64,000 nt of DNA from Halanaerobium sp. MA284_MarDTE_T2 (GTDB lineage Bacteria; Bacillota; Halanaerobiia; Halanaerobiales; Halanaerobiaceae): positions 1-64,000 of the forward strand of contig NZ_QPJE01000008.1 of NCBI RefSeq assembly GCF_003337245.1, written 5' to 3'. Positions 16,466 through 31,673 of the stretch are shown one piece after another. The first letter of the stretch is position 1. Each line of letters begins with the position of its first letter. The notes beneath the pieces are model-generated. The model was not told where the DNA came from and searched no databases. It saw only the letters and a program-made list of their open reading frames with translations. Both the position numbers and the translations under genes were made by a program.

Positions 16466-17162
16466 ATATATTAGCAAAATGTTTAAGATTATCATCTAAC
16501 ATTTTAATCATTTTCTTATCTGCACCTTTTTGAGGTCCATATACTTCAGCTGCACCTCGTTTCCCAACCAAAGGATTATCAACATCACAAGCTACAATAA
16601 TATTTATATTTTTTATCCTATTGTCTAAATTTGTGGTTTCAATTTGTACAATATTATTTAGATTTTTACCACATGGTTCAACCAAATTCCCATTTTCATC
16701 AAAAAAGTTAACACCCATAGCATTAGCCATTCCAGCACCACAATCATTTGTCGCACTTCCACCGATTCCGATGATGATTTTATTTATTCCACGATTAATT
16801 GCTGACATAATTAATTGTCCAGTTCCATAAGTTGTAGTTATAGCTGGATCCCTTTTATTTTCTGGAATAAGTGTAAGTCCAGATGCTTCAGTCATTTCTA
16901 TTACTGCAGTTTCTTCATCACCTAAAATGCCATAATGAGCTTCAACTTTATTTTTCAACGGTCCTAAAACTACTTCTTTTATAAATATACCATTTGTTGC
17001 ATTAACTAAAGAATTAACAGTTCCTTCCCCTCCATCTGCAAGAGGGAGAATTTCTGTTTCAATATCATCAGAGAAAAATTCTATTCCCTTTTCAATAGAA
17101 TTACACACCTTTAATGATGAAAGTGATCCTTTAAAAGAATCTGAAGCAATTAATATTTTCAA
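16466..17162 (-). pseudogene. garK: Glycerate kinase (GarK/GlxK type), 3' truncated by insertion sequence
   Basis: The first ~232 residues of a glycerate 2-kinase, which phosphorylates glycerate with ATP. It opens MKILIASDSFKGSLSS (TTG 17162, AGAGG seven bases upstream) and keeps ADGGEGTV, GIGGSATNDCGAGMA and the DNPLVGKRGAAEVYGPQKGA motif. Family members are about 370-380 residues, so roughly 140 C-terminal residues are missing. The frame runs into the right end of the insertion sequence and stops at 16449 after five foreign codons. The lost part is not found on the other side, so the gene is broken for good. It is the last gene of the long catabolic array. Confidence 0.85.
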
Positions 17163-17213
17163 AAGAATCATCCTCTAAAATAATTTTGGATTAAAAAAAT
17201 TTCATATATTTAT

Positions 17214-17894
17214 TTACTTATCTACATAATATTCCTTAGTAGGCCTACCTACTTTTCCATATATTAATTTAATCTGTATTTTATTTTTTTCAGCTAAATA
17301 CTCTAAATATTTTCTTGCTGTAATTCTGGAAACACCAAGCTCTTTAGCAATTTGATTTGCTGAATTATATTCTTTTTTATTTTTAAGATAATTATATATT
17401 TTTTTTAAAGTTATTTCTGATATACCTTTAGGTAATAATTCATTTGATTTCTTTTCTTTTTTTTGGTAGATAATTTTATCAACATTTTTTTGCGTGAAAT
17501 TTTCATTTTTATTAAACATATCTATATAATTTAGATATTGTTCAAGTGATTTTTTTAACCTTTCAAATTTGAAAGGTTTTATTAAATAGTCTATAGCTCC
17601 ATATGAAAATGCTTCATGTATTTTATCAACGTCACTAGCTGCAGTAATAAAAATAATATCACATGAAAGTTCTAATTTTCTAATTTTTTTTAATATTTCT
17701 ATACCATCATTATCTGGCAAAAATATGTCTAATAAAATTAAATCAGGTTTTTTATTCTTTATTTTTTTTGTTATTAATTTAAAATTACTATTTACTTCTC
17801 CAACAACAGTAAACCCCTTTATTTTTTTTACAAATTCTTTGTTTATTTGTAACACCATAGGGTCATCTTCAACGATCAAAACTTTTATATCCAT
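17214..17894 (-). CDS. Response regulator, CitB/DcuR family
   Basis: A 226-residue two-component response regulator. The receiver domain (residues 1-120) has acidic pocket Asp10/Asp11, phospho-acceptor Asp56 (LILLDIFLP), Thr84 and Lys106. The C-terminal ~60 residues hold a winged helix-turn-helix (SANQIAKELGVSRITARKYLEYL) typical of regulators paired with CitA/DcuS carboxylate sensors. The kinase gene is directly upstream (30-base gap). It most likely activates the TctABC array in which it lies. Confidence 0.92.
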   Translation of the reverse strand: MDIKVLIVEDDPMVLQINKEFVKKIKGFTVVGEVNSNFKLITKKIKNKKPDLILLDIFLPDNDGIEILKKIRKLELSCDIIFITAASDVDKIHEAFSYGAIDYLIKPFKFERLKKSLEQYLNYIDMFNKNENFTQKNVDKIIYQKKEKKSNELLPKGISEITLKKIYNYLKNKKEYNSANQIAKELGVSRITARKYLEYLAEKNKIQIKLIYGKVGRPTKEYYVDK

Positions 17895-17923
17895 CTAAAT
17901 AAACCTCCAGGAAAAGCTTAAAC

Positions 17924-19480
17924 TTAATAAGGGATTTTTATCTTGAACTTTGTCTCAGTTTTATTACAGTCAACTTCTATTTGACCTTCCGCTTTATTAA
18001 CAATATTAATCACATTATTTAAGCCCATACCCTTTCCGTCTTTTTTGGTAGAAAACCCTTTATCAAATATCTTATTTTTACACTTTTCTTTTATACCTGA
18101 ACCATTATCTTTTATTTCAATAATTAAATTTTTATTTTCTTGCTTCACAAGAAGTCTGACTTTTTTATCATCTTTTTCAATATTTTTTAATGCATCAAAG
18201 GAATTATCAATTAGATTACCTAATACAACTATTGCATCATGTTCATTAAAATGTTTCGGTAATTTTTCTAAAAAGCTATTTTTTAGTACATTAAATTCAA
18301 TATTATTTTCTTTAGCCTCACTATATTTTCCCAACAAAAATCCAGAAATACTAAAAATTTTTATTCTTCTAAGTATATATCCAAGGTTTTCTTCTTCAAA
18401 TTTTTGCTCATGATTAATGAAATTAATTGCATTTTCATATTTTCCTAATTGAATTAAACCAGATATAGTGTGCAGTTTATTAATATATTCATGTGTTCTT
18501 GCTCTTAATGCTGAAACAATATTTTGAAATCCAGTTAATTTTTCTGCTAACTCATTTATTTCAGTTGAATCTCTAAAAGTTGCTACTGCTCCAATTATTT
18601 TATTATTTACAATTATGGGAATCCGATTTGTTAAAATTTCTTTTCCTGAAATAAGTTGTTTTTGATCAAATTCAGGTTTTCCACTATTTACTACATCTAC
18701 TAAACGCGTTGTTTTTATTATTTTTTCAACAGGTTTATCAAGAACATCCCCATTTATATTTAATATATTTTTTGCCGAATCATTGATCATTGTTATTTTC
18801 CCTTTTTTGTTTATTGCAATAAGACCCTCTCTCATTGAATCAAGAATTGTTTCTTTTTCTTTAAGCAAAGTAGCTATTTCAATAGGTTCTAATCCAAATA
18901 TTGAATTTTTAATATTTATAGACAGATAATATGATAATATAATAATTAAAATAAAACCTATCGGCAGTGTAGTAATAAAAATTTTATAAATTTCATTAAA
19001 ATATTGCGAAAATTTTGGTTGAAAAAAACCAACAGCAACAAATCCTATTTGTTCATTTTCTGAATAAATTGGTGCAAACCCTCTGATAGAAGGTCCAGAT
19101 ATACCTACAGCCCTAGAATAATAACTTCTGCCATTTAACGCACCTTTTTCATCTCCACCGGTAAATTTTTTTCCAATCAAATTTTTGTTAATATGACTAT
19201 ACCGAATAGAATCCATATTATTAAATACAACAAAACTAACATTGGTAGTATCTACAATATTATCAGCAAGATCATCCAAATATTGAGACGGATGTTCACT
19301 AAGATAAGCTTCTATAACTTCTTTATCTCTAGACAAAATCTTAGCAATATCTTGTACGTGCTCACCTATTCTTTCTACCACATTTTTTTGTAAAGTGTTA
19401 AGCATAAAAAGTGAAATAATAAGAAGAATGAACACTCCTCCTAAACTTGTGTATAAAATTATTTTATTTCTAAGTTTCAT
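17924..19480 (-). CDS. Sensor histidine kinase, CitA/DcuS family
   Basis: A ~518-residue membrane kinase. Segment 1 (residues ~8-28) and segment 2 (~170-190) flank a periplasmic PAS-like sensor of the citrate/C4-dicarboxylate class (sCache), with SRAVGISGPSIRGFAPIY as the conserved core. A cytoplasmic PAS domain (~215-310) follows, then the phospho-acceptor region LRARTHEYINKLHTISGLIQ, N-box LIDNSFDAL and G-box DNGSGIKE...FSTKKDGKGMGL. It should sense an external carboxylate and phosphorylate the regulator downstream. I chose ATG 19480, six bases after AGGTG, over the GTG at 19489. Confidence 0.92.
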   Translation of the reverse strand: MKLRNKIILYTSLGGVFILLIISLFMLNTLQKNVVERIGEHVQDIAKILSRDKEVIEAYLSEHPSQYLDDLADNIVDTTNVSFVVFNNMDSIRYSHINKNLIGKKFTGGDEKGALNGRSYYSRAVGISGPSIRGFAPIYSENEQIGFVAVGFFQPKFSQYFNEIYKIFITTLPIGFILIIILSYYLSINIKNSIFGLEPIEIATLLKEKETILDSMREGLIAINKKGKITMINDSAKNILNINGDVLDKPVEKIIKTTRLVDVVNSGKPEFDQKQLISGKEILTNRIPIIVNNKIIGAVATFRDSTEINELAEKLTGFQNIVSALRARTHEYINKLHTISGLIQLGKYENAINFINHEQKFEEENLGYILRRIKIFSISGFLLGKYSEAKENNIEFNVLKNSFLEKLPKHFNEHDAIVVLGNLIDNSFDALKNIEKDDKKVRLLVKQENKNLIIEIKDNGSGIKEKCKNKIFDKGFSTKKDGKGMGLNNVINIVNKAEGQIEVDCNKTETKFKIKIPY

Positions 19481-19502
19481 GCTTAACACCTAACTTTAAT
19501 AA

Positions 19503-20726
19503 TTATAAATTATTAGCATAATCTTCTATTTCATCTATTTTTAATAATCTTTTCTTTTTAATAGCATTCTTTTTAATAATCTTTAATAATTTCATTTGTT
19601 TTTCTTCATTTAATTCAATATCAAGTAAGTCAAGAACTCTTTTAATATTAGCTAAACCATTATGTTTACCAAAAACAATATCTGTTTTTTTCTGACCAAC
19701 AAGCTCCGGAGAAATAGGAGAATATTCTAACATATTCTCCTTACCACAATTAAGTACCCAGGAAGTTACAATACCTGATTCTACATCAAAAATATTTTCT
19801 CCAACTATTGGACGATTAGGTCTAATATTTATTCCTGATAATTTTTGTACTAATAAAGATAATTCTTTTAATTTTGAAACATCTATATTTAAATCTTTAT
19901 TATACATTGTAAGAAGTGAAAGAATTACATCTTCAAAAGGTGCATTCCCAGCTCTTTCACCAAGCCCTGTAATAGTTGTATGAACAACGTCTACTCCTGA
20001 AGCTAAAGCTATAATAGAATTAGCCGCTCCAATTCCAAAATCATCATGAAAATGAACTTCTAAAGGTTTATTAATATTACTTTTTATTTTATTTATTAAA
20101 TAAGGTATAGAGTGAGGATTCAAACCTCCCAAAGTATCAACTAAAGCAAGTGAATCCATATGCCCTTCAGAAGAAACAGTTTTTATTAAATCTATGAACC
20201 AATCAAACTCTGCTCTGCTTCCATCAATAGGAAAAAAAACTGTATATAATCCTTTTTCTTTTGCAAAACTTGTTGCTTCAATTGAAAGTTCAACTGCTTT
20301 TTCTAAAGACCAATTATATGCATTTTCTATTATATGTTTGCTAGCAGGAATTTCTATAACAATACCATCTGCTCCACACTCATGAGCAATTTTCACATCT
20401 TCCTTCATACATCTAGCAAATGAAAATATTTTTGCGTCTCCTAAATTAGCATGTGCAATACTTTCTAAAGCCTCCCGATCGTCTTTTGATACCGCCGGCA
20501 TTCCAGCTTCAATCCTATGGACACCAATTTGAGCTAATTTTTTTGCAATTCTTACTTTTTCATTTTTAGTAAACACAATTCCCGCCTGCTGCTCTCCATC
20601 TCTTAAAGTAACATCATGTACTTGTATATTATCTGAAAAATTATAATTTGACATTACTTCTTCTGAAAAATTCCAGGGACTAGTAAACCAATTCTCTGTC
20701 TTCCAGGGTTTCTCACGTAAATTCAA
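19503..20726 (-). CDS. Isopropylmalate/homocitrate synthase-like acyltransferase
   Basis: A 407-residue member of the DRE-TIM metallolyase (HMGL-like) family, which condenses acetyl-CoA with a 2-oxoacid. VHDVTLRDGEQQAG (catalytic Arg and metal Asp), LEVHFHDDFGIG (HxH metal ligands) and TTITGLGERAGNAPFED are intact. The C-terminal LeuA regulatory domain is missing, as in homocitrate and citramalate synthases, so allosteric feedback by leucine is unlikely. A ~30-residue N-terminal extension (KPWKTENWFTSPWNF) resembles that of some anaerobe homologues. Start TTG 20726 after GAGGAG. In this array a catabolic or anaplerotic role is more likely than leucine synthesis, since no leuBCD genes are present. 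Confidence 0.8.
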   Translation of the reverse strand: MNLREKPWKTENWFTSPWNFSEEVMSNYNFSDNIQVHDVTLRDGEQQAGIVFTKNEKVRIAKKLAQIGVHRIEAGMPAVSKDDREALESIAHANLGDAKIFSFARCMKEDVKIAHECGADGIVIEIPASKHIIENAYNWSLEKAVELSIEATSFAKEKGLYTVFFPIDGSRAEFDWFIDLIKTVSSEGHMDSLALVDTLGGLNPHSIPYLINKIKSNINKPLEVHFHDDFGIGAANSIIALASGVDVVHTTITGLGERAGNAPFEDVILSLLTMYNKDLNIDVSKLKELSLLVQKLSGINIRPNRPIVGENIFDVESGIVTSWVLNCGKENMLEYSPISPELVGQKKTDIVFGKHNGLANIKRVLDLLDIELNEEKQMKLLKIIKKNAIKKKRLLKIDEIEDYANNL

Positions 20727-20771
20727 AAAAATTCTCCTCTCTATTTATTATATAATTTATTAATTAAGAAC

Positions 20772-21767
20772 TCAAATAACATTTTCTTGTTTAATCATTT
20801 TACAACACAATTTAATTGCTTCACTCATTGCTCCAGGATCTGCTTTATTTTCACCTGCAATATTATAAGCAGTTCCATGTGCGGGAGTAAGAATTGGAAA
20901 AGGTAATCCAGCATTCAAAGTAACTCCTTTATCCAGTCCTTTTAGTTTTAAAGCTATTTGACCTTGATCATGATACATAGTAATAATTATATCGTATTTT
21001 CCTCTAAAAGCATCAATAAATATTGTATCTGCAGAAAAAGAACCGAAAATTTCAAGTCCTTTTTGTCTTTTGTTTTCAATTACTGGTCGAATTATATCAA
21101 TTTCTTCTCGACCAAAGAGACCATCTTCACCTCTGTGAGGGTTAAGAGCACAAACAGCAATTTTAGGTTCTTTATTTTCTACTTTTTTAAATGTATTATA
21201 CGCTAAATCAATTACATTATTTATATTTTTAAAATTAATGAAGTTATTGACTTCACTAATTGAAACATGTGAACTAACTCTTGCTGTCCATAAACCATGC
21301 AAATAATTCATTTCACCAACTATATTTTCCCATGATAAAAGATCAACAAACAACTCTAATTCATCTCGATATAAAAATCCACCAGAATTAATTTTCTTTT
21401 TATTTAGAGGACCATAAACAATTCCATCAATATACTGATTATCAGCATAATAAAGGATTTTTTGTAATATTGGTATTACTAATTTTGAAGAATTATTATA
21501 AATTTTATTTTTAGAAAGACTATTTTCTTCGTATTTTTCAAATCTTAGAAAAGCAATATTATTATCTGAGAAATTAACATTTTCTATATTTTTGTAAGTA
21601 GAATACTTTATATCAACATCCGTAATATTAATTGCTCTCTTTATATCTTTTTCTATTCCAAAAAGCAGAATATTTTCATTATAATTATATTCCGATAATG
21701 CTTTAACAACAATTTCAGGTCCTATTCCTTCAGGATCTCCTAAAAATAAACCAATCAAATTTATCAC
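20772..21767 (-). CDS. PdxA-family 4-phospho-hydroxyacid dehydrogenase (PdxA2-like)
   Basis: A 331-residue NAD-dependent, metal-dependent dehydrogenase of the PdxA family. Visible features are GLFLGDPEGIGPEIVVKA at the N-terminus and three metal histidines in SSHVSI, NPHRGEDGLFG and MYHDQGQIALK, plus LPFPILTPAHGTAYNIAG. True PdxA oxidises 4-phosphohydroxy-threonine in vitamin B6 synthesis, but PdxA2 paralogues in sugar-acid operons oxidise phosphorylated threonate or erythronate. Its setting with a glycerate kinase, dehydrogenases and a carboxylate carrier favours the second kind. GTG 21767 nearly touches AAAGGAT, so TTG 21758 may be the start. Confidence 0.82.
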   Translation of the reverse strand: MINLIGLFLGDPEGIGPEIVVKALSEYNYNENILLFGIEKDIKRAINITDVDIKYSTYKNIENVNFSDNNIAFLRFEKYEENSLSKNKIYNNSSKLVIPILQKILYYADNQYIDGIVYGPLNKKKINSGGFLYRDELELFVDLLSWENIVGEMNYLHGLWTARVSSHVSISEVNNFINFKNINNVIDLAYNTFKKVENKEPKIAVCALNPHRGEDGLFGREEIDIIRPVIENKRQKGLEIFGSFSADTIFIDAFRGKYDIIITMYHDQGQIALKLKGLDKGVTLNAGLPFPILTPAHGTAYNIAGENKADPGAMSEAIKLCCKMIKQENVI

Positions 21768-21807: not shown

Positions 21808-22767
21808 TTAAGGTTTTATCAATACTTTAATTAAATTATTATCATTACTGACAGCCTGAAAAGCCTTCTCGATCTCTTCCAATTTATACTCATCTGAAAT
21901 CAAGCTTTCGATATCAATTAAACCTTGCTGTACTGGTCTTAAAGCTTTAGGAGCCCAAACATATCTCTCTTCAGGAGTATGATGAACTAAACCAGTATTT
22001 CTGATATATAAACTGTGATGATGCCAGCGGTGAATATCTAATGTCACGGGCTCAGTAATCCAGCTATATAATGATATAATTCCATTGTGTTTTACTAAAT
22101 CACTAGCCATGTTCATACTTTCTTCTGTTCCTGCTGCCTCTATTACTACGTCAAAACCTTCTCCATTTGTTATATCCATTAATTTTTGATTAATATTTTC
22201 GTCATTAAAATTAAAAACAATATCTGTGCCTAGTTTTTTTGCTAAAGAAAGTTTTCCTTTTACAACATCTACACCCACAACCTTATTAGCCCCTTTCAAC
22301 TTTGAACCTTGAGCTAAAATTTGACCGGCAAATCCTAAACCTAGAACTAAAACATTATCTCCTAAATTTACACCCGAATTTAAAGATGAATATAATGCAC
22401 ATGCAATAGGCTCTCCCAATGCTGCATAACGCATATTCATTCCTTCTGGAACAGGTTGAAGATATTTTTCTTTAATCACAAAATAATCAGAAAAAGTATG
22501 ATAATGTCCAAAAGAAATAACTTTATCACCAGGTCTATATTTACTTACTCCTTTTCCAATATTTATTACTTCACCTCCACCTTCATGACCTAAAAGAAGG
22601 GGATAATCTTCTTCAGGTGGTAATTCTCCCTTATAAAACATTTTATCAGTGCCACATATTGAAGCCTGTTCAGTTTTTACTAATACATCATTTTTCTCTA
22701 TATTCAATTCTTTTTCTACCAAATATATTTCGCCTTCATTAGCGAGTTTAGCAACTCTTGTTTTCAT
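21808..22767 (-). CDS. Zinc-type medium-chain alcohol dehydrogenase
   Basis: A 319-residue MDR dehydrogenase. The catalytic zinc site is seen in ASICGTDKMFYKG and LLGHEGGGEV, with GEPIAC as the third region. The Rossmann nucleotide site is VLVLGLGFAGQILAQ near residue 140. The structural-zinc lobe with four cysteines is missing; the loop after GDKVISFG is short. It probably oxidises a polyol or hydroxyacid with NAD. The gene overlaps the cupin gene by one base, which points to coupled translation. The substrate is unknown. Confidence 0.85.
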   Translation of the reverse strand: MKTRVAKLANEGEIYLVEKELNIEKNDVLVKTEQASICGTDKMFYKGELPPEEDYPLLLGHEGGGEVINIGKGVSKYRPGDKVISFGHYHTFSDYFVIKEKYLQPVPEGMNMRYAALGEPIACALYSSLNSGVNLGDNVLVLGLGFAGQILAQGSKLKGANKVVGVDVVKGKLSLAKKLGTDIVFNFNDENINQKLMDITNGEGFDVVIEAAGTEESMNMASDLVKHNGIISLYSWITEPVTLDIHRWHHHSLYIRNTGLVHHTPEERYVWAPKALRPVQQGLIDIESLISDEYKLEEIEKAFQAVSNDNNLIKVLIKP

Positions 22768-23123
22768 TATTTTTCACCTTGTTTATTTATTGGAATCAAA
22801 CATAAAAATTCAAAGTTCTCATCATAAGGATTTTTAAATTGATGAGTTTCATTAGCTTTTACATAAGCAGACATCTCTGGCCCAATTTCATGCTCATCAC
22901 CATCAGAAACCATTATGCCTCTACCTTTTATAAAATAATTTTCATGTTCCCAATTATGCTTATGTAAGGGGGTATTGCCACCAGGTTCCACAATAAAATA
23001 TCTCATTATAAAATTTACATCACCATCTTCAGGTCCCACTAAAACTTTTTTATAAGTTTTTTTTACGCCTTCTTGACCTGATAAATCCACTTTTTTTACA
23101 TCAGAATTCTTTTTTATAATCAT
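22767..23123 (-). CDS. Small cupin-domain protein
   Basis: A 118-residue single-domain cupin. The metal-binding pattern PLHKHNWEHENYFIKGRG (two His, one Glu) and the second motif near ANETHQFKNP fill most of the protein. It could be an isomerase, a lyase, or a metal-bound sensor or chaperone of a pathway intermediate; sequence does not decide. The stop overlaps the dehydrogenase start, so the two likely work on the same compound. A 32-base palindrome separates it from the upstream gene pair. Confidence 0.75.
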   Translation of the reverse strand: MIIKKNSDVKKVDLSGQEGVKKTYKKVLVGPEDGDVNFIMRYFIVEPGGNTPLHKHNWEHENYFIKGRGIMVSDGDEHEIGPEMSAYVKANETHQFKNPYDENFEFLCLIPINKQGEK

Positions 23124-23154
23124 TAATTCTCAACTCCTATTTTAAAATATAAAT

Positions 23155-23186
23155 ATATCTTCCGGTTGAATTCAACCGGAAGATAT
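23155..23186 (-). terminator. Perfect palindrome inside the catabolic array
   Basis: Sixteen-base arms (ATATCTTCCGGTTGAA / TTCAACCGGAAGATAT) lie between the ferredoxin/partner pair and the cupin gene. The T-run after it is weak, so it may attenuate transcription or mark an mRNA processing site. Confidence 0.6.
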
Positions 23187-23199: not shown

Positions 23200-23817
23200 T
23201 TACAACATTTCTTCAATCAATCTTTTTGTCCTTACTGGATTTATTACTCCACAGTGACATTGTTTGGTTATTTCATTAACAGCTTTATCAATATTTAATT
23301 TATTATTTTTTACCTTCTGAGCTAAATCTTGAACTAAATTAAAAGATACCATTCCATGTCCACACATAGTAGATATTTGTAAAACTTCTTCCCGTGGTAA
23401 TCTGTTAGTATTACCCCATATTCCTAATGAATTATTTACAGTGTGAAATTCTGTTCCACTTTCTTTACAAATTTTTTCAACACTATCAATTAATCCTGAC
23501 ACTACTATAGATAAACCTAAATCTTTATCCTTTAACTCTTTTAATACTTTAACAACTTCTTTCCTTTCATCAAAAACTGCATGAACTATAGAATTATCCT
23601 GAAATTCTTCTTCAATTTTTTTAACACCAACTGAATACATATTACCAGTTTTCATATCACCTAAATTTTTATAATTATATTGCTTTACCACTTTAAAAAA
23701 ATCTGCAAACAAAGATGCTGTACCTTTTGCATTTACTTCTTGTGCAGATATAGCAAAAACTACATAATCATCTTCAAGACTTTCATATGGACCTCGGCGA
23801 TGCAATGTATGAGTCAT
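23200..23817 (-). CDS. Unknown partner protein, copy 1 (conserved TMCGHGM and CHCG motifs)
   Basis: A 205-residue soluble protein with no family I can name safely. It starts MTHTLHRRGPYESL and has conserved blocks NSIVHAVF, NSLGIWGNTNRLPREE, ISTMCGHGMVSFNL and QCHCGVINPVR. The invariant Cys and His in the last two look like metal or Fe-S ligands. It is about 50% identical by eye to the protein at 30322-30948. Both overlap their ferredoxin-domain neighbour by one base, so the two polypeptides probably form one enzyme. A split relative of a ferredoxin-containing reductase, such as the 6-hydroxynicotinate reductase type, is possible, but this is from memory and weak. Confidence 0.7.
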   Translation of the reverse strand: MTHTLHRRGPYESLEDDYVVFAISAQEVNAKGTASLFADFFKVVKQYNYKNLGDMKTGNMYSVGVKKIEEEFQDNSIVHAVFDERKEVVKVLKELKDKDLGLSIVVSGLIDSVEKICKESGTEFHTVNNSLGIWGNTNRLPREEVLQISTMCGHGMVSFNLVQDLAQKVKNNKLNIDKAVNEITKQCHCGVINPVRTKRLIEEML

Positions 23818-24548
23818 TAGTTAACCTCCTTGAAATCATATTTTGGTTTGCCCAATCCAACATTTATTTTCCCATTTGGATATACTTCGTATCCTTTTTC
23901 TTTAACTATATCTCTAGCTGGTATTTTATTATTTTCAACAACTTTTGATATTAAATCAATACTAAATACTGTTTCAATTTCTTTTTCTACATCTTTTAGA
24001 TCTTCTAATAAATTTTCAAGCTGATCAAGAGGTAAAGTGAATTCAATAATTGCAGATAATGTCTTCTCATTTAAATACTTTTCTGTAATTGCTCCAGTAT
24101 TTTTATCTTTCATTACTGTTGTTACCGGGTTACAATCTGCAAATTCAACATCATATTTTGCACAAGTTCTTGCTACTTTTTCAACTTCATAAAATCTTGT
24201 TCCTGTATTGGGACGACCCATCTCAATTCCTACTCCAGCATAACCAGGTTTAAATGTACCTGTTACATCATTAGTTTTCATTTCCTCTGTTCCTCGCCCT
24301 AAAACATTTGTGGACTTATGAGTTTTTAATGGATCACTAAAAGTATTTCTGAATTCCCTTAATTCATCTTCTAACGGATCCTGAATGAAAGCAGATGTTG
24401 GACAAACATTTGCATGATAACATATATTACATTCTACACATTCATCAATATCTATTTTAACTGCATCATCTACTTTTATAATTGCACCAACTGAACAATA
24501 AGGTATACATGTTTCACATTTTATGCATTTGTTTTGATCTATTTTCAT
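23817..24548 (-). CDS. Ferredoxin-domain protein with GRGTEEMKTN domain, copy 1
   Basis: A 243-residue protein. Residues 1-55 hold a 2x[4Fe-4S] ferredoxin: Cys8/11/14/18 and Cys37/40/43/49, the second with five residues before the last Cys instead of three. Residues ~80-240 form a domain I do not recognise, marked by VLGRGTEEMKTNDVTG, GVGIEMGRPNTGTRFYEVEK and a C-terminal GKINVGLGKP. It overlaps the partner gene by one base. It should pass electrons from a low-potential donor to a site formed with the partner (inference). Paralogue at 30948-31673. Confidence 0.75.
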   Translation of the reverse strand: MKIDQNKCIKCETCIPYCSVGAIIKVDDAVKIDIDECVECNICYHANVCPTSAFIQDPLEDELREFRNTFSDPLKTHKSTNVLGRGTEEMKTNDVTGTFKPGYAGVGIEMGRPNTGTRFYEVEKVARTCAKYDVEFADCNPVTTVMKDKNTGAITEKYLNEKTLSAIIEFTLPLDQLENLLEDLKDVEKEIETVFSIDLISKVVENNKIPARDIVKEKGYEVYPNGKINVGLGKPKYDFKEVN

Positions 24549-24562: not shown

Positions 24563-25414
24563 TTAAAATTCTTTTAGCATTTTTATGTAATTTTCTTTGG
24601 TTTCTTCTTTTATATGATAAACATGACCTTCTTCAGGAAATTTCTCTTCTTTAACATCTTTAATATATTCCTTAAAAGCATTTATTTCTATTTCTGCTAC
24701 ATTTGCATACTTTTTAACAAACTTAGGTGTAAATGCCTGAAACATTCCCAGCATATCTCCACAGATTAGAAGCTGTCCATCACAGGGTAAACCTGCCCCG
24801 ATTGAATATATTGGAATATCTAGTTTCTTTGTTAAAAATTCAGTTAATTCCGGTGGAATTGCTTCAACAAGAATTGAAAAAGCTCCAGCTTCTTGAATAG
24901 CAAGGGCATCTTTAATTAATTCTCGTCCACTTTCTGGGTTCAATCCCTGAGCTTTGAAGCCACCTAATTGACCGGAACTTTGTGGTGTTAATCCAATATG
25001 ACCCATAACTAAAATTCCAGCATCAGTAATTGCCTTTATCTGATCAGCAACCCTTCTTCCTCCCTCTAGTTTTACGGCATCAACATCAGACTCCTTTAAA
25101 AACCTAACAGCGTTGTTCACCGCTTCAGTGGAAGAGCTTTGGTATGATCCAAATGGCATATCTCCTATAATAAAAGTTTTTTCAGCACCTCTTCTTACAT
25201 CCTGACAGTGGGCTATACAGTCATCCATTGTTACAGGTACTGTACCTTTATAGCCTTTAACTACCATTCCCAGTGAATCTCCAACTAAGATCATATCCAT
25301 ACCTGCTTTTTCTGCAAATTGGGCTGTTGGAAAATCATAGGCTGTGATCCAGGCTACCTTTTCTCCTTTTTCTTTCATCTTCATTAAGTCAAGAACACTT
25401 TTCTTTTTACCCAT
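24563..25414 (-). CDS. panB: Ketopantoate hydroxymethyltransferase-like enzyme (PanB family)
   Basis: About 283 residues, the full length of PanB. Metal and active-site motifs are intact: ITAYDFPTA, LVGDSLGMV, IGDMPFGSYQ, VKLEGG, MGHIGLTPQ and the catalytic Glu in LVEAIPPEL. PanB adds a hydroxymethyl group from methylene-tetrahydrofolate to 2-oxoisovalerate and the reaction is reversible. No panC or panD is nearby; the neighbours are catabolic dehydrogenases and a carboxylate carrier. A catabolic retro-aldol on a hydroxymethyl 2-oxoacid is therefore possible (inference). Start ATG 25414 after AAGGTG, rather than GTG 25423. Confidence 0.85.
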   Translation of the reverse strand: MGKKKSVLDLMKMKEKGEKVAWITAYDFPTAQFAEKAGMDMILVGDSLGMVVKGYKGTVPVTMDDCIAHCQDVRRGAEKTFIIGDMPFGSYQSSSTEAVNNAVRFLKESDVDAVKLEGGRRVADQIKAITDAGILVMGHIGLTPQSSGQLGGFKAQGLNPESGRELIKDALAIQEAGAFSILVEAIPPELTEFLTKKLDIPIYSIGAGLPCDGQLLICGDMLGMFQAFTPKFVKKYANVAEIEINAFKEYIKDVKEEKFPEEGHVYHIKEETKENYIKMLKEF

Positions 25415-25444
25415 TTTTATCACCTTTCCAAACAGTTTTTTATT

Positions 25445-26608
25445 TTATAACGCCATATTAAAAATATTAACAATATCAGCCTTATTTAATTCCATATATC
25501 CACCCACTGGAGCAATATTATCTGCCATCTCTTCAAACTTTTCTTTTCCAATATTAAAATATGATAAAGAAAGTGGTGCTCCTATTTCTTTAAACCATTT
25601 TCTTAAAAGTTTAATACCCTCTGTGGCAGTATACTTCTCTCCTAGTTTATTCACATCAAGTCCAAAAATCCTATTTCCGAATTGTACAAACTTAGATATA
25701 TCATTTTTCATAACATAATCAAGCCAATTTGGAAGTAGAATGGATAAACCTGCACCATGTGGTATGTCATAATAAGCACTCAATTCATGTTCTAATTTGT
25801 GACAGGGATGAGTTGTTCTTTCATCTTCAACTCCCATTGCTAAAAGTCCATTTAAAGCCATCGTAGAACAAAGAAGAATATTTGCTCTTGAATCATAATC
25901 TTTAGGATTTTTTAGTACTTTTTTGCTCTCTTCCATTAAAGTTAAAATTATTCCTTCTGCCCATCTGTCTTGAAGTGGTACCTCCTTTACATGTGTAAAA
26001 TACTGTTCCAATACGTGAGCTGTGATATCAATTATTCCATAAATTGTATGTTTTTGAGGAACACTAAAAGTTATTGTTGGGTCAAGTACAGAAAATTTAG
26101 GAAACAAAACATCACTATGTATTGAAAGCTTTCTGTTTTCAATTTTATTTGAAATTACAGCCCCGTTATTCATTTCAGAACCTGTAGCAGCAAGTGTTAA
26201 TACAGTTGCTATGGGCAAAGCAGCAACAGGATCATTATTTTTATCAAACATTTCCCATGGATCACCATCATATTTTACTGCAGCAGCTACTGTTTTAGCA
26301 GTATCTATAGTGCTACCTCCTCCAACCGCAAGAACTATATCAATTTTTTTTTCTTTTGCAATCTTTGTACCTTTTCTAACAAGGTCTATTCTTGGATTAG
26401 GTTCTACCCCTTCTAAATTATAGATTTTAATATCATTTTTTTCTAAAATTTTAACGACTTTTTTATACAAACCAATTCTTTTCACACTTCCTTGCCCGGT
26501 GACTAATAAAACTTTTTTTCCATACTTTAAAATTTCGCTTCCTAAAACATTCAATTTATCACTGCCAAAAAAAATTTTTGTAGGATTATAAAATTTAAAA
26601 TTTTTCAT
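25445..26608 (-). CDS. Iron-type alcohol dehydrogenase (butanol dehydrogenase-like)
   Basis: A 387-residue group III dehydrogenase. The nucleotide site is AVGGGSTIDTAK near residue 95. Metal ligands are the Asp and His in IIDITAHVLEQY and the two His in THPCHKLEHELSAYYDIPHGAGL. YqhD/BdhA relatives reduce aldehydes with NADPH. In this array it may oxidise a hydroxyacid or dispose of an aldehyde. It lies between panB (30-base gap) and the DUF2148 gene (11-base gap) in the same direction. Confidence 0.9.
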   Translation of the reverse strand: MKNFKFYNPTKIFFGSDKLNVLGSEILKYGKKVLLVTGQGSVKRIGLYKKVVKILEKNDIKIYNLEGVEPNPRIDLVRKGTKIAKEKKIDIVLAVGGGSTIDTAKTVAAAVKYDGDPWEMFDKNNDPVAALPIATVLTLAATGSEMNNGAVISNKIENRKLSIHSDVLFPKFSVLDPTITFSVPQKHTIYGIIDITAHVLEQYFTHVKEVPLQDRWAEGIILTLMEESKKVLKNPKDYDSRANILLCSTMALNGLLAMGVEDERTTHPCHKLEHELSAYYDIPHGAGLSILLPNWLDYVMKNDISKFVQFGNRIFGLDVNKLGEKYTATEGIKLLRKWFKEIGAPLSLSYFNIGKEKFEEMADNIAPVGGYMELNKADIVNIFNMAL

Positions 26609-26619
26609 ATAACCATCCT

Positions 26620-27135
26620 TTATCTATCAAAATATATATTCTTACCTGTTATAGAAATTGGAATACCTACAACAATTTCTCCATCAATAATCTTCTCTTT
26701 TTTTGCCACAGCTCCTATTCTATACATTATTCTGTTATCAACATTAAACAAAGCTGCTGTCTTCACTGCTGAACCTAATGCAATCCCTAAATCTATTAAT
26801 CTCCAGGCACAAACAGGACCATCAAATTCTTCTCCTTTTCTCATTTCTAAATCATTACAATTATTATAACCACATGCTCCACAATTCAGGCCTAATGCTT
26901 TAGCTTCATTTAATGATATAATTAAAACAGCAGAACTTTTTTTTACATTTTCACCATCTCTATCAAAGTTTTTCTTTTTGTTTTCTTTTCCATATTTAAT
27001 CATAGCATCAGCAAGTTTTTTTATTTCTTGTTCTTCTAATATTTTTGTTTTCAGATAGTTACTTCCACCTGCTTTAGGTGCTGTTATAGCAGAAATATTC
27101 ATGAATTGTGCAACTGTTTGAGTTACTTGTTTCAT
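26620..27135 (-). CDS. DUF2148 ferredoxin-like protein
   Basis: A 171-residue protein of the DUF2148 (COG4739) type, recognised from LNCGACGYNNCNDLE near residue 88 and DGPVCAWRLIDLGIALGSA near 115. The cysteine group could bind an Fe-S cluster. No biochemical function is established for the family, which is common in anaerobes. I chose ATG 27135, behind GAGGAGG, over an upstream in-frame codon. It sits between tctA and the iron dehydrogenase, so it belongs to the pathway rather than to general metabolism (inference). Confidence 0.8.
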   Translation of the reverse strand: MKQVTQTVAQFMNISAITAPKAGGSNYLKTKILEEQEIKKLADAMIKYGKENKKKNFDRDGENVKKSSAVLIISLNEAKALGLNCGACGYNNCNDLEMRKGEEFDGPVCAWRLIDLGIALGSAVKTAALFNVDNRIMYRIGAVAKKEKIIDGEIVVGIPISITGKNIYFDR

Positions 27136-27146
27136 CTTTTTCCTCC

Positions 27147-28658
27147 TCAACCTTCAGATTTGATATTTTTAGTAATCTGATAATCTTTAAAAGCACTATA
27201 CATTGACCAAATGAATAATATGAGGCTTAAAATTAACAATGTAGCCGAAATTGGTCTAGTAAAAAATATTGTGAAACTTCCATATGACATACTTAAAGCT
27301 CTTCTCATACTGGGCTCTGCAATTCCTCCGAGAACAAGTCCCAAAATAATAGGAGCCAATGGATAATCTTGTTCTTCTAAGAAATATGCTATTATTCCAA
27401 ATATTAACATAACCCAAATATCGAATACATTTGTTCTATTGGCATAAGCCCCTATAGTACACAGTAAAATAATTATACTAATTACTACTGTATAAGGGAC
27501 TTTAAAAATTTGAGTGAACACTCTAACAAATCCTTTATTCAAAAGAAGTATAAAAACATTCACAATAAATAAACCAGCAAAAATAGTATAAACTAATTTA
27601 GGTTGTTGTTGGAAGAGCAATGGTCCTGGTTGCATTCCATGTAATATAAATGCTCCTAACATAACTGCTGTTGTAGCACTACCTGGTATTCCCAAAGATA
27701 ATAGTGGTATCATTGCTCCTGCAGAAGCAGCATTATTTGCAACTTCTGGAGCAGCTACACCTTCTGGAACTCCTGTTCCAAAGTCTTTTCCATTTTTTGA
27801 AAATCTTTGGGCAAAACTATATCCAAATAAACTTGCAGTTGTTGCTCCAGCTCCAGGAAGAATTCCTATAAAAGTTCCCAAAAGAGAGTTTATACTCAAT
27901 ATTTTTTTAAATTTTACAAAAAAATGAAAAGGAGGTAATAAAGTTCCTGAGTATTGTGCTTCACTGTTCATTTCAGATAATTTTGCTCCTTTTCTAATTT
28001 GCCTTAACATTTCAGAAATTGCAAAAGTACCTAAAATAATTGGCACTAAATCAATACCACCTAAAAATTCAGATATTCCAAATGTAAATCTTGGCATCAT
28101 TTTTACAGGATCTAAACCTACAGTGGCTAATAAAAGACCTATACACATAGTTATAAAAGCTTTTACTAAATTTTTGCTTCCAAGAGAAGACACTAAAGTA
28201 AGACCAAAAATTGCTAATGAAAAATACTCGGCTTCTGAAAAATTTAAAGCCCATTTTGCAAGCTGTGGAGCTAAAAAAGTTAATATAATTGTTCCTACAA
28301 TTCCACCAGTTGCTGATGCAAACACGGCAGTTGATATTGCTTCGTTCATCCTACCTTTTTGAGTCATTTTATATCCATCTAAAGAAGTTACAACTGCTTC
28401 AGGAGCTCCTGGAGTTCTAAACATAATTGCACTAATAGATCCAGCATAAACAGCCGCTGAATAAACTGCAGTTAGTATCAAAAAAGCTTTTACAGGCCCA
28501 ATCCCATATGTTATTGGCACAAGAAGTACAACAGTCATTACACCACTCATGCCTGGAACTGCTCCACTAACTAAACCAAGCACTACTGAACTTATAATTA
28601 ATATTAAGTTTACTGGAGAAAGTGCTGTTCCAAATCCCATCAATAAATTATTTATCAT
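27147..28658 (-). CDS. tctA: Tripartite tricarboxylate transporter, large permease TctA (second system)
   Basis: A ~503-residue TctA with about 11-12 hydrophobic segments and the motifs GAVPGMSGVM, GILPGAGATTA and LSLGIPGSATTA. It is clearly diverged from the TctA at 1159-2673, so it probably carries another carboxylate. It forms tctC-tctB-tctA with the next two genes and precedes DUF2148. Start ATG 28658 follows AGGGGG by seven bases; the longer frame from 28676 is unlikely. Confidence 0.92.
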   Translation of the reverse strand: MINNLLMGFGTALSPVNLILIISSVVLGLVSGAVPGMSGVMTVVLLVPITYGIGPVKAFLILTAVYSAAVYAGSISAIMFRTPGAPEAVVTSLDGYKMTQKGRMNEAISTAVFASATGGIVGTIILTFLAPQLAKWALNFSEAEYFSLAIFGLTLVSSLGSKNLVKAFITMCIGLLLATVGLDPVKMMPRFTFGISEFLGGIDLVPIILGTFAISEMLRQIRKGAKLSEMNSEAQYSGTLLPPFHFFVKFKKILSINSLLGTFIGILPGAGATTASLFGYSFAQRFSKNGKDFGTGVPEGVAAPEVANNAASAGAMIPLLSLGIPGSATTAVMLGAFILHGMQPGPLLFQQQPKLVYTIFAGLFIVNVFILLLNKGFVRVFTQIFKVPYTVVISIIILLCTIGAYANRTNVFDIWVMLIFGIIAYFLEEQDYPLAPIILGLVLGGIAEPSMRRALSMSYGSFTIFFTRPISATLLILSLILFIWSMYSAFKDYQITKNIKSEG

Positions 28659-28685
28659 AGGTAATCCCCCTAACAAATTTATTAA

Positions 28686-29198
28686 TCAATAAAAAATATA
28701 GCTAACTTTTCTAAATATACTTTGTCCTCTGGGCAATAATAGATTAAGATAATTTGGAAATATATATGCCAATAAAACAACTATAACAATAGCAATAACA
28801 GGAGCTAATATTTTTTTTCTATATCCTAAATTCCAGAACATTGAAACTAATAACAGGGGGGTTAACAATATAAATCCTAAAGTTCTTAAAAACATAGAAT
28901 AAATAGATAATATAATTAAACTTATAAAAAATTTTTTACTGTTATTTTTTATTTCTTCAATATCTTTTTCTTCTTTATATGCCTCAGTTTCTTCCATTAT
29001 TTTATCTCTTTTTTTAAATAAAGAACCAAGATTAATTAAACTTAACACTAGCATAAAACTAATTATTATTCTTGGCCAAAAAGCTGGTCCTACTCCTTTA
29101 GATTGATTTACATCAAACGTATTGACATAAAAAAGCAAAAATATTGAAATAAAAAATATAATTAAAGCTATAATAATTTCCTTTTTGAAAGTTCTCAT
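28686..29198 (-). CDS. tctB: Tripartite tricarboxylate transporter, small permease TctB (second system)
   Basis: A 170-residue TctB with four hydrophobic segments and a charged cytoplasmic loop (KKRDKIMEETEAYKEEKDIEE) after the second. The N-terminal VNQSKGVGPAFWPRIIIS region (DxxxxxGPxFxP) is characteristic of the family. Start ATG 29198 after AGAGGG. A perfect 30-base palindrome separates it from tctC. Confidence 0.85.
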   Translation of the reverse strand: MRTFKKEIIIALIIFFISIFLLFYVNTFDVNQSKGVGPAFWPRIIISFMLVLSLINLGSLFKKRDKIMEETEAYKEEKDIEEIKNNSKKFFISLIILSIYSMFLRTLGFILLTPLLLVSMFWNLGYRKKILAPVIAIVIVVLLAYIFPNYLNLLLPRGQSIFRKVSYIFY

Positions 29199-29219
29199 TA
29201 ACAACCCTCTCTTTTCATT

Positions 29220-29249
29220 CTAGGCACTAGTTTTAAAACTAGTGCCTAG
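29220..29249 (-). terminator. Intercistronic palindrome between second tctC and tctB
   Basis: Perfect inverted repeat CTAGGCACTAGTTTT / AAAACTAGTGCCTAG after the tctC stop. Same place as the unrelated hairpin in the first tct operon (3202-3237). Confidence 0.7.
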
Positions 29250-29277
29250 GTAATAACATTTACTTAATATAAATATA

Positions 29278-30228
29278 CTAGTCAAGCAAATGCTTGAGAT
29301 TTTTCATAGTTTCAACATCTTTCTTGAAAAATTCTTCGAATTCTTCTGTACTCATATATCCATTTCTTAAATCTAAAAAGTTCTTACTTTCGAATTCTTT
29401 ATAATGATCACTACTCATAGCTTTTTTATACATATCATGAATCTTTTTAACTATATGGTCTGGAGTACCCGCTTTAACAAAGATACCACGCCAAATTCCT
29501 AATGTTGCATCCCAACCTTTTTCAACAGAAGTTGGAACATCTGGATAACCTGCAACTCTCTCTCCATCTTTCAAAAATACCAATGGTCTTACTTCCCCAG
29601 CATCTAATAAACCTTTTATTTCCTGCATCTCAGCCTGAAATGCATGTAAGTTTCCTGCCAAGCCATCTTTTTGTTCACTACCGGCAGAATCATAATTCAC
29701 AGTGGTAATGTCAATTCCTGCTGCTTCTGCAAAATTTTCAATAAATAATTGTGTTATAGAACCAACAGTACCGATTTTCACTTCACCTGGATTATCTTTA
29801 GCATAGTTTACTAATTCATCTATTGTTTTAAATTGACCATCTTTTCTTGTAACAATTATTGAAACATCTGATTGAGCTCTCATCACAGGTTGCCAATCTT
29901 CAACATCATATTCAACAGTGCCCATTGCTATATTTAAAGAAAGAGAAGATGGAGCAAATAAAATTGTATATCCATCAGCAGGTTGGTTTTGAACATAAGC
30001 AGATGCCAAAGCACCATTAGCTCCAGGTTTATTGCTTATAACTAAAGGAACATCAATATAATCTTTTGCAGGAGTAGAAAGTGAACGAGCAGCATTATCA
30101 GTACCTCCACCTGCACCATAACCTACTATAACATTAATTGTTCTCTCAGGATATTCAGCCAAAACTGCACTCGAAAAAAGACTCATAATTAAAAACCCAA
30201 GAACAAAAATAGTTGTTAATTTTTTCAT
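29278..30228 (-). CDS. tctC: Tripartite tricarboxylate transporter substrate-binding protein TctC (second system)
   Basis: A 316-residue binding protein with signal peptide (cleavage near residue 24) followed by YPERTINVIVGYGAGGGTDNAAR and a PGANGALA loop, the BugT/TctC carboxylate-binding elements. It collects the array's substrate outside the membrane. The start ATG 30228 has its own site GAAAGGGG. A further strong GGGAGGTGAT lies about 75 bases upstream (30299-30308) with no start codon behind it. Confidence 0.92.
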   Translation of the reverse strand: MKKLTTIFVLGFLIMSLFSSAVLAEYPERTINVIVGYGAGGGTDNAARSLSTPAKDYIDVPLVISNKPGANGALASAYVQNQPADGYTILFAPSSLSLNIAMGTVEYDVEDWQPVMRAQSDVSIIVTRKDGQFKTIDELVNYAKDNPGEVKIGTVGSITQLFIENFAEAAGIDITTVNYDSAGSEQKDGLAGNLHAFQAEMQEIKGLLDAGEVRPLVFLKDGERVAGYPDVPTSVEKGWDATLGIWRGIFVKAGTPDHIVKKIHDMYKKAMSSDHYKEFESKNFLDLRNGYMSTEEFEEFFKKDVETMKNLKHLLD

Positions 30229-30298
30229 AAAAATCCCCTTTCGCTAAATTAATAGCTAATAATTTAATGTCAAACCAACTGAACTAAAATAATTTTAT

Positions 30299-30308
30299 AT
30301 CACCTCCC
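30299..30308 (-). promoter_or_regulatory. Orphan Shine-Dalgarno in tctC leader
   Basis: GGGAGGTGAT on the minus strand, followed by ATAAAATTATTTTAG with no ATG, GTG or TTG at a working distance. See findings on possible mRNA-stabilising ribosome sites. Confidence 0.5.
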
Positions 30309-30321
30309 AATTTAAATTTAA

Positions 30322-30948
30322 TTAATTCTCAGACACAATTCTCTCAATTATCTTAGCTGCTCTTTCTGGATTAAAAACTCCACAATGACAATTAGGTGCA
30401 ATCTTTTTTGCTGCTTGTTCTGGAGTCATTGTTCCTTTTTTAACATTACTGATTACTAATTGGGTCAAATTAGAAGAAATCATACCATGTCCACACATAG
30501 TAGTTATTTCTAATATTTCTTCATCTGGAAGAAGATTAGTATTCCCCCATATGCCAAGAGAATGTTCTATAGTATGTCTTTCAATACCAACTTTTTTAGC
30601 TATTTCATCAACTGCATCTAATACACCAGTAGCAATAACAGACATACCCAAATCTGCTTCTTTTACTTCTTCCATTGCCTTTTCCATAGTTTCTTCGTCA
30701 GTAAAAACTGCATGAACTACCGAACTCTCAGTAATATTTTCTCTTATTCCCTTCTCTCCAACACCATATTTATTTCCAGTTCCACAATCACCAAAGTTAA
30801 CGGGATCATATTTTATAACAATATCAAAAAACTTTGTTAATTTGGGTATACTCCCTTTTTCATTAAAACCCTGAGCTGGAATTGCAAATAATACAAAATC
30901 ATTTATTAAACTTTCATAGGGACCACGGCGATGTAATGTATGAGTCAT
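30322..30948 (-). CDS. Unknown partner protein, copy 2 (conserved TMCGHGM and CHCG motifs)
   Basis: A 208-residue paralogue of 23200-23817. Shared blocks are MTHTLHRRGPYESL, SSVVHAVF, HSLGIWGNTNLLPDEE, ITTMCGHGMISSNL and NCHCGVFNPERA. Conservation is strongest around Cys and His residues that could bind metal. It overlaps its ferredoxin partner by one base and precedes tctC. Two diverged copies in one array suggest two related steps or two subunit types rather than simple redundancy (inference). I do not recognise the family. Confidence 0.72.
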   Translation of the reverse strand: MTHTLHRRGPYESLINDFVLFAIPAQGFNEKGSIPKLTKFFDIVIKYDPVNFGDCGTGNKYGVGEKGIRENITESSVVHAVFTDEETMEKAMEEVKEADLGMSVIATGVLDAVDEIAKKVGIERHTIEHSLGIWGNTNLLPDEEILEITTMCGHGMISSNLTQLVISNVKKGTMTPEQAAKKIAPNCHCGVFNPERAAKIIERIVSEN

Positions 30949-31673
30949 TATTTTCCCTCCTTAGCTTTTGGTCTACCTAAACCAAGATTTGTTTTCCCAT
31001 TTATAGAAGGGTCAAATCCTAAATCTCTAGCAATTTCTGCAGCAGGCAAAGTATTATCATTCTCTAATTTCCCTGCTAAATCAAGACTAAATACTGTTTC
31101 TAATTCTTTAGAAACTTCTTTAATTGCATTTAAAGCTTCTGGTACTCTTTCCCTATCGATATCAAATTCAACAATAGCTGATAAAACTCTTTCATTTAAA
31201 TACTTTTCTTGAATTTCTCCAGTTTCTTCATTCTTCATTAAAGGTTTTAATGGATTACATGGTTCTAATTTATTAATACCAATCGATGCTAATTTTTTAG
31301 TAACTTTTTCTACATCATAAAATCTTGTTGCAATTCCTGGACGGCCCAATTCAACTGCTATACCTACATGCCCTTTTTTAAATCTACCTGTCACTTCATT
31401 CGTTTTCATTTCTTCAGTTCCTCTTCCTAATACGGCAGTCGATTCATGAGGCACAAGTGGATTGGAAAATGCTTTTCTTAATTTTCTTAATTCATCCATT
31501 TCTCCTTCATAAAATGCATCTACCGGACAGCCAGCATGTTTCTCACAAATTCCACACTCAACACATTCATCTTCTACTATGTAACAAGTTTCTTCTCCTT
31601 CTTTTATAGCTTCTACTGGACAATACGGTATACACTGATTACATAATATACATTTACTTTCATCAATTTTCAT
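30948..31673 (-). CDS. Ferredoxin-domain protein with GRGTEEMKTN domain, copy 2
   Basis: A 241-residue paralogue of 23817-24548 and probably the first gene of the long array. The N-terminal ferredoxin has Cys8/11/14/18 and Cys37/40/43/49. The remaining ~190 residues carry VLGRGTEEMKTNEVTGRF, VGIAVELGRPGIATRFYDVEK and GKTNLGLGRPK. Together with its partner it would make about 450 residues, the size of a single reductase chain. Function unknown. Start ATG 31673 behind GGAGG. Confidence 0.75.
   Translation of the reverse strand: MKIDESKCILCNQCIPYCPVEAIKEGEETCYIVEDECVECGICEKHAGCPVDAFYEGEMDELRKLRKAFSNPLVPHESTAVLGRGTEEMKTNEVTGRFKKGHVGIAVELGRPGIATRFYDVEKVTKKLASIGINKLEPCNPLKPLMKNEETGEIQEKYLNERVLSAIVEFDIDRERVPEALNAIKEVSKELETVFSLDLAGKLENDNTLPAAEIARDLGFDPSINGKTNLGLGRPKAKEGK

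Follow-up and report, generated by a model that had tools for sequence, protein, structure and literature searches.

The window analysed here comprises 64,000 nucleotides of Halanaerobium sp. MA284_MarDTE_T2 (contig NZ_QPJE01000008.1, positions 1 to 64,000). Its minus strand carries an array of 17 genes around the carrier genes tctCBA, and the very probable role of this array is the uptake and fermentation of a small organic acid. The array consists of a conserved core, namely a sensor and a regulator, a ferredoxin protein with a partner protein (Fd/partner pair), tctCBA, a zinc dehydrogenase and glycerate kinase, together with additions. Three of the additions are unusual subfamilies: a second type of PanB (PanB-II), an enzyme resembling isopropylmalate synthase (IPMS-II) and a variant of PdxA (PdxA'). 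We read the whole as a composite catabolic array of one or two transcripts, whose substrate, a short hydroxylated carboxylate, would be imported by TctABC and sensed by CitA/CitB, and assign this reading a probability of about 0.5. The array is built from look-alikes of biosynthetic enzymes, which have apparently been turned to breakdown. The host genome has 2.47 Mb and is 99.8% complete; its nearest relatives lie within one family and order of anaerobes, and the host is presumably a halanaerobial fermenter. Absences from this genome rest on protein-family searches. Compared loci are labelled by L-numbers and compared genomes by G-numbers.

Layout of the array

An earlier note on this DNA had described sixteen intact genes and one broken gene running in one direction, with gaps mostly under 50 bases or overlaps. 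This is in good agreement with the 17 open reading frames found, which span 31673 to 16449 and are all read from the minus strand; of these, 16 are intact and the glycerate kinase gene is broken. Thirteen of the 16 intergenic spacings are below 50 bases or are overlaps, and the remaining three measure 93, 73 and 76. The extent had been given as 16466 to 31673; the upper end stands, whereas the truncated last gene reaches 16449, 17 bases further. Pfam and NCBIfam searches bear out the proposed family assignments and return nothing for the two partner proteins. The families are Fer4, TctC, TctB, TctA, DUF2148, iron-containing alcohol dehydrogenase, PanB (Pantoate_transf), cupin_2, zinc-containing alcohol dehydrogenase, PdxA, HMGL-like/HCS_D2 (the IPMS-like enzyme), CitA-type histidine kinase (sCache_3_2, SPOB_a), DpiA-like regulator and glycerate kinase. 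The adjoining TctA, TctB and TctC genes form a complete tripartite tricarboxylate transporter (TTT) set (PF01970, PF07331, PF03401).

30948-31673, minus: Fd1, 2[4Fe-4S] ferredoxin domain plus GRGTEExKTN domain, subunit A of pair 1 (Fer4 matches; invariant residues)
30322-30948, minus: Part1, partner with MTHxLHR...MCGH...CxCG, subunit B of pair 1 (no Pfam match; 20 invariant positions)
29278-30228, minus: TctC substrate-binding protein (PF03401)
28686-29204, minus: TctB small membrane subunit (PF07331)
27147-28676, minus: TctA large membrane subunit (PF01970, 2e-145)
26620-27150, minus: DUF2148 ferredoxin-domain protein (PF09918)
25445-26608, minus: iron-containing alcohol dehydrogenase (PF00465/PF25137)
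24563-25423, minus: PanB-II, proposed catabolic retro-aldolase/hydroxymethyltransferase (PF02548; PanB-II clade 99/98)
23817-24548, minus: Fd2, ferredoxin subunit of pair 2 (51% identical to Fd1; AlphaFold pLDDT 89)
23200-23817, minus: Part2, partner subunit of pair 2 (50% identical to Part1; AlphaFold pLDDT 92.8)
23155-23186, minus: 14-bp perfect hairpin, possible terminator, attenuator or operator (z -5.5)
22767-23123, minus: cupin (PF07883)
21808-22767, minus: zinc-dependent dehydrogenase, recurring beside Fd/partner (zinc alcohol dehydrogenase family; 45-52% identical relatives in 9 loci)
20772-21767, minus: PdxA', proposed decarboxylating 3-hydroxyacid dehydrogenase (PF04166; signature substitutions common to L045 and L089)
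19503-20726, minus: IPMS-II, IPMS-like condensing/lyase enzyme (PF00682 and PF22617; 50-64% identical relatives in five genomes)
17924-19489, minus: CitA/DpiB-type sensor kinase (family match; kept in core)
17214-17894, minus: CitB/DpiA-type response regulator (family match; kept in core)
16449-17171, minus: glycerate kinase, cut at residue 234 (PF02595)
15042-16442, no strand assigned: insertion sequence with transposase at 15052-16383, plus (42-nt inverted repeats; DDE domains)

The glycerate kinase frame breaks off at residue 234, out of about 380, and abuts the insertion sequence, whose terminal inverted repeats lie at 15042-15083 and 16401-16442; this element is what broke the gene. The rest of the kinase gene is absent from the 64-kb window, and a second, intact copy lies on contig 15 of the same genome.

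The Fd/partner pair and the conserved core

In each of the two pairs, the first protein joins an eight-cysteine ferredoxin to a domain that carries the motif GRGTEExKTN, and the second starts with MTHxLHR. Over 71 relatives, the ferredoxin protein has its 8 cysteines and 17 other residues invariant (R85, E89, K91, R112, S165, E169 and K227 among the latter). The partner has 20 invariant positions, including T2, H3, H6, R7, N29, H125, C152, H154, C187, C189, N193 and R196. Both window pairs keep every one of these positions. The three invariant cysteines of the partner, C152, C187 and C189, would be compatible with a cluster that has an open site. The evolutionary distances of the two subunits co-vary among 58 pairs (r 0.86, Mantel 0/2000), to which shared phylogeny contributes a part.

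The 71 partner proteins have no consistent match in Pfam or NCBIfam, and searches of PHROGs and, by sequence, of the solved structures returned no relative of the partner. Plasmid records hold no match to Fd2, and a profile-profile comparison found no relationship between the two subunits. The AlphaFold models are confident (pLDDT 92.8 for Part2, 89.0 for Fd2). A structure search with both returned ferredoxins and common ferredoxin-like alpha/beta folds of the PII/ACT-like kind; the best match of the partner model, to PII/ACT-like proteins at Z 5.4, is weak and proves no kinship. A fold-based family assignment was therefore dropped, as the structural matches are limited to ferredoxin and generic alpha/beta folds. 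Hnr (6-hydroxynicotinate reductase) was considered as the identity of the pair; the literature search gave nothing relevant to it, and it was not adopted.

One genome per species was scanned for the pair, which gave at least 228 relatives in clostridia, syntrophs, Chloroflexi, sulphate reducers and archaea. Neighbouring genes were counted by tblastn in the best-scoring 80 of the 228 loci, and the counts are thus biased toward close relatives. These 80 loci come from clostridia, Peptococcaceae, Desulfosporosinus, Syntrophaceae, Dehalococcoidia, Synergistaceae, gut Dialister and Sutterella, and archaea; the ferredoxin protein stands beside the partner in 77 of them. As for carriers, TctA and TctC each occur near the pair in 19 loci and TRAP DctM in 11. 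The association of the pair with tctA is beyond chance: 19 occurrences in the fetched flanks of the partner face about 4 expected (binomial 8e-9), the expectation being taken from the high density in the Halanaerobium genome itself, 6 per 2.47 Mb. Two of these six tctA genes adjoin Fd/partner pairs, and in both related genomes that have a pair, it also adjoins tctCBA.

A zinc dehydrogenase 45-52% identical to that of the window is found in 9 of the 80 loci, with three more distant ones besides. Sensors of CitA type and regulators of CitB type were counted in 9 loci each, one of each being distant (L062, L025), which leaves 8 close ones. The closest arrangement is that of L019 (zinc dehydrogenase, glycerate kinase, regulator, sensor / Fd, partner, TctC, TctB, TctA), and L022 and L028 resemble it minus the glycerate kinase. 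Three Desulfosporosinus loci (L044, L047, L050) have the same sensor, regulator, pair and zinc dehydrogenase with a TRAP carrier, and L023 combines the zinc dehydrogenase with a MOFRL-type glycerate kinase that is unrelated to the kinase of the window. The core and its glycerate outlet thus recur with different carriers and different kinases. Tandem divergent pairs within one cluster occur in the window and in L048, L060 and L065.

The redox neighbours counted in the 80 loci are CooF-like ferredoxins (31), FAD oxidoreductases (28) and proteins resembling carbon monoxide dehydrogenase (CODH-like, 25); others are AOR (10), AGT (9), GlcD (8) and LarA (6). The third pair of the Halanaerobium genome, on contig 27, lies beside another tctCBA set and FAD oxidoreductase, CODH-like and CooF-like genes, while the two pairs of the window are without these three neighbours. 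The CODH-like protein (L006, 15243-16514, and 25 loci) has 390-620 amino acids and occurs with the FAD oxidoreductase and the CooF-like ferredoxin beside Fd/partner. Only its four B-cluster cysteines are invariant, conserved C-cluster ligands were not found in it, and it is probably not a CO dehydrogenase.

Some settings of the pair deserve separate mention. In L021 (3901-10624) and L025 it adjoins genes for a hydantoinase-like amidohydrolase and an ECF-type transporter, in L021 also two proteins resembling FdrA and DUF1116; such neighbours hint that some lineages use nitrogen-ring or carbamoyl substrates. The smallest gene setting is that of gut Dialister and Sutterella (L057, 4113-5009; L064, 10633-11529), where a protein of the phosphoenolpyruvate (PEP) mutase/isocitrate lyase family follows the pair and an NlpA/MetQ-like binding protein lies upstream.

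PanB-II, IPMS-II and PdxA'

The PanB, IPMS and PdxA proteins of the array belong to distinct subfamilies, and two of them are cut off from the biosynthetic pathways whose names they carry. The window PanB passes the NCBIfam cut-off for PanB. Its identity is 65-82% to proteins from related genomes and 44-53% to the canonical PanB proteins of the same set. PanB-II forms a separate clade (support 99/98) apart from the canonical, panC-linked rows, and this clade takes in a deltaproteobacterial member that adjoins an Fd/partner pair. Nearly all genomes with canonical PanB have PanC, while family searches found no PanC in any of the ten genomes with PanB-II only (the Halanaerobium genome and nine other relatives); G048 has canonical PanB, PanC and two PanB-II copies. 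All 18 PanB-II rows keep the catalytic and metal residues D45, D84, K112, E114, H136 and E181, and the changed positions are V144S, V152A, C182A and I200Y. These follow the numbering of E. coli PanB, whose row agrees with a separate alignment. Outside the order, PanB-II is present in 8 of 19 Fd/partner genomes, mostly alongside a canonical copy.

The window copy groups with a second PanB-II of its own genome (82% identical) and the close relatives of the latter. This second copy heads a hydroxyectoine-type operon (L112, contig 26, 8703-18001) with two DoeA-like proteins, EutB, RidA, a protein resembling glutamate dehydrogenase (GDH-like), an unknown 316-aa protein and TRAP. The operon of DoeA-like, EutB, RidA, GDH-like and 316-aa genes with PanB-II is kept in most halanaerobial PanB-II genomes, and in Desulfosporosinus PanB-II stands with the k1/GDH-like/M20 part of it. 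The make-up of L112 suggests an anaerobic ectoine route through 4-amino-2-oxobutanoate. Other neighbours of PanB-II are IlvD and GntP (L122), 4-hydroxy-2-oxovalerate aldolase and acetaldehyde dehydrogenase (L125), UxaA and IlvD (L177), an MR/MLE enolase and IPMS-II (L176), homoserine dehydrogenase, a pterin-binding methyltransferase, TctA and TctC (L175), and an octopine-type dehydrogenase with MttB (L123, L172). 4-Hydroxy-2-oxobutanoate arises from tetronates by dehydration of the IlvD/MR/UxaA type or from homoserine, and 4-amino-2-oxobutanoate from 3-hydroxy-diaminobutyrate or diaminobutyrate. The neighbours thus point to 4-substituted 2-oxobutanoates that would be split into pyruvate and methylene-tetrahydrofolate (methylene-THF). 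As several independent neighbourhoods fit this, we propose that PanB-II works in the retro-direction. A literature search on PanB together with ectoine or with 4-hydroxy-2-oxobutanoate gave nothing relevant.

Besides the window, L054 (Deltaproteobacteria) and L082/L173 (Chloroflexi) have PanB-II and Fd/partner within one cluster. The clusters of L054 and L082/L173 share an unknown 421-aa protein, an aldehyde dehydrogenase, a PCC-domain protein and an ABC carrier. The 421-aa protein (L054, 4698-5963; L173, 9302-10576) is without a Pfam match and 63% identical between Deltaproteobacteria and Chloroflexi.

The IPMS-like enzyme scores 345 bits against the NCBIfam IPMS cut-off of 517 and stays below every cut-off for IPMS, NifV (homocitrate) and CimA (citramalate). 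Relatives of 50-64% identity were found in 5 of the 38 genomes searched. In L176 the gene directly follows PanB-II, and its product shares the N-terminal stretch PWKTxxWFxSPWN with the window enzyme; other relatives adjoin GlcD and a hydantoinase-like gene, or AOR and DapA, and one of 43% identity adjoins AOR and TctABC. The family search found no aconitase-family protein in the Halanaerobium genome, and hence no LeuC.

The closest solved relatives of PdxA' are PdxA2 and D-threonate 4-phosphate dehydrogenase, from the alignment to which the reference row was copied. In PdxA', Glu replaces the histidine of GHTE, the N and R of VNITxGLPxIRTS are replaced, and DHGT is changed to AHGT. This signature is common to the window, L045 and L089, which represent three phyla, and lies beside Fd/partner in each. 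The pocket substitutions suggest a different, perhaps unphosphorylated, substrate.

Proposed route, alternatives and known systems

From gene content, conservation, subfamily membership and linkage, all of them observed, we infer the following reactions, their order and direction, and the class of substrate. TctABC would bring in a short hydroxylated acid, sensed by the CitA/CitB pair. The Fd/partner protein is most likely a two-subunit iron-sulphur enzyme acting early on this acid; its ferredoxin subunit would supply electrons, and the invariant cysteines of the partner would hold a site-differentiated cluster. The dehydrogenases and PdxA' would yield 2-oxo acids, and PanB-II, in the cleaving direction, would convert an acid of the 4-hydroxy- (or 4-amino-) 2-oxobutanoate type to pyruvate and methylene-THF. 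The aldol-type step that had been predicted is supported by PanB. PdxA', the zinc dehydrogenase and glycerate kinase may form a branch toward phosphoglycerate, in which the kinase step is now probably covered by the intact copy elsewhere in the genome. A bolder proposal, which we put forward tentatively, is that strict anaerobes have in Fd/partner a new class of two-subunit iron-sulphur enzymes, and that PanB-II with IPMS-II marks an undescribed fermentative route from C4 acids (tetronates, homoserine, ectoine-derived diaminobutyrate) through 4-substituted 2-oxobutanoate to pyruvate and methylene-THF. Pathways for sulfolactate, nicotinate and pantothenate were considered as well and set aside, since the array was not seen to contain the key enzymes of any of them.

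Several observations weigh against a single composite pathway. A synteny check set beforehand found Fd/partner with TctABC, zinc dehydrogenase and CitA/CitB in unrelated anaerobes, but neither DUF2148 nor the iron dehydrogenase nor the cupin recurs beside the pair in the 80 loci, so that the gene set as a whole is not one conserved unit. The pair also adjoins very different genes (hydantoinase/ECF transporter in L021 and L025, LarA/GlcD, a PEP-mutase-type lyase) and need not mean one substrate. The fold matches of both predicted subunits are weak and concern common ferredoxin-like alpha/beta folds. The hairpin at 23155-23186, located between the genes for Part2 and the cupin, may divide the array into two transcripts, with or without read-through; a single transcript across the 15 kb is thus not assured. 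Its palindrome, used to search for regulator sites, is unique within the window.

The main rivals are an assemblage of unrelated functions and a purely electron-carrying role of the pair. In the former, which is possible but less probable than the composite array, the core alone forms one pathway, and the iron dehydrogenase, PanB-II and DUF2148, as well as PdxA', IPMS-II and the cupin, serve other substrates, having been inserted by duplication and transfer. The grouping of the window PanB-II with the ectoine-operon copy is what a recent duplication predicts, the accessory genes do not recur together, and the hairpin lies between the array halves. Yet independent clusters of PanB-II with Fd/partner exist in L054 and L082/L173, PanB-II and IPMS-II adjoin in L176, and PdxA' stands beside Fd/partner in L045 and L089. 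We are similarly doubtful that the pair is an electron-transfer or redox-sensing module for the FAD oxidoreductase/CODH-like/CooF-like unit and other oxidoreductases instead of an enzyme on the imported acid. Its commonest neighbours are indeed such redox proteins, and ACT/PII-like alpha/beta folds are predicted in both subunits, but the tandem divergent pairs, the linkage to substrate transporters and the many invariant His, Arg, Cys and Asn residues look like a substrate-specific enzyme, and the window's pairs lack the redox neighbours.

A branched-chain route is unlikely: here PanB would split ketopantoate to 2-oxoisovalerate, with the IPMS-like enzyme and PdxA acting on branched acids in a pantoate or pantothenate fermentation. 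PanB passes its NCBIfam cut-off with all catalytic residues kept, and in L019 tctA adjoins a ketol-acid reductoisomerase, an enzyme type known to reduce ketopantoate; however, no pantothenase, LeuC or other leucine-pathway hydro-lyase was found, and the other PanB-II neighbourhoods fit C4 acids. Ordinary biosynthesis, with panB and leuA of pantothenate and leucine synthesis placed by chance in a transport operon, is favoured by the family names alone. It is already refuted by the absence of PanC and aconitase-family proteins from the 99.8% complete genome, unless PanC and LeuC sit in the missing 0.2%, and PanB-II and IPMS-II are separate subfamilies; we regard it as highly improbable.

The partner and the GRGTEExKTN ferredoxin protein are a widespread nameless unit of anaerobic life, and their linkage to acid carriers offers a direct route to its function. 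PanB is annotated as vitamin synthesis everywhere; a catabolic subfamily, if true, would correct many genome annotations, would predict pantothenate auxotrophy where synthesis is now assumed, and, in salt and sediment habitats, would give the fermentation of compatible solutes and sugar acids an additional step that yields methylene-THF.

Elsewhere in the window, a predicted ABC transporter operon of peptide type (33433-38939) has a lysine riboswitch (39244-39424, 114 bits) upstream of it. A second tctABC set adjoins a 2-oxoacid:ferredoxin oxidoreductase-like gene (1-4257), and the genes at 53868-63622 look like those for methylmalonyl-CoA mutase and decarboxylase, together with a 2-oxoacid oxidoreductase. 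The Fd/partner pair of G015 (L008) adjoins a decarboxylase set similar to the latter.

The earlier note knew of no described pathway with this gene content. In agreement with this, the literature search, which covered few subscription papers, found no description of the pair, a catabolic PanB or this gene set, and an earlier description is possible. Among the closest known systems is TTT-linked carboxylate catabolism with CitA/CitB regulators, with which the array shares the tripartite carrier, the sCache sensor kinase and the DpiA-like regulator beside catabolic genes. The array differs in having Fd/partner, PanB-II, PdxA' and IPMS-II in place of the described citrate, tricarballylate and tartrate enzymes. 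With PanB, the ketopantoate hydroxymethyltransferase, PanB-II shares fold, metal and catalytic residues, but it stands in its own clade, without PanC, with four changed positions and with catabolic neighbours. PdxA' departs from its nearest solved kin, PdxA2 and D-threonate 4-phosphate dehydrogenase, in the GHTE, VNITxGLPxIRTS and DHGT motifs. The hydroxyectoine utilisation system (EutB/DoeA) is matched by the operon headed by the second PanB-II, in which the aerobic tail is replaced by PanB-II, the GDH-like enzyme and the 316-aa protein. Finally, the FAD oxidoreductase, CooF-like and CODH-like genes often near Fd/partner have the same make-up as the Ni-CODH/CooF/FNOR modules (PMC6344411). The survey of Ni-CODH by Inoue et al. 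2019 retained only sequences without deletions in the B- and C-clusters (PMC6344411), whereas the CODH-like protein near Fd/partner keeps the B-cluster cysteines only and has no conserved C-cluster ligands.

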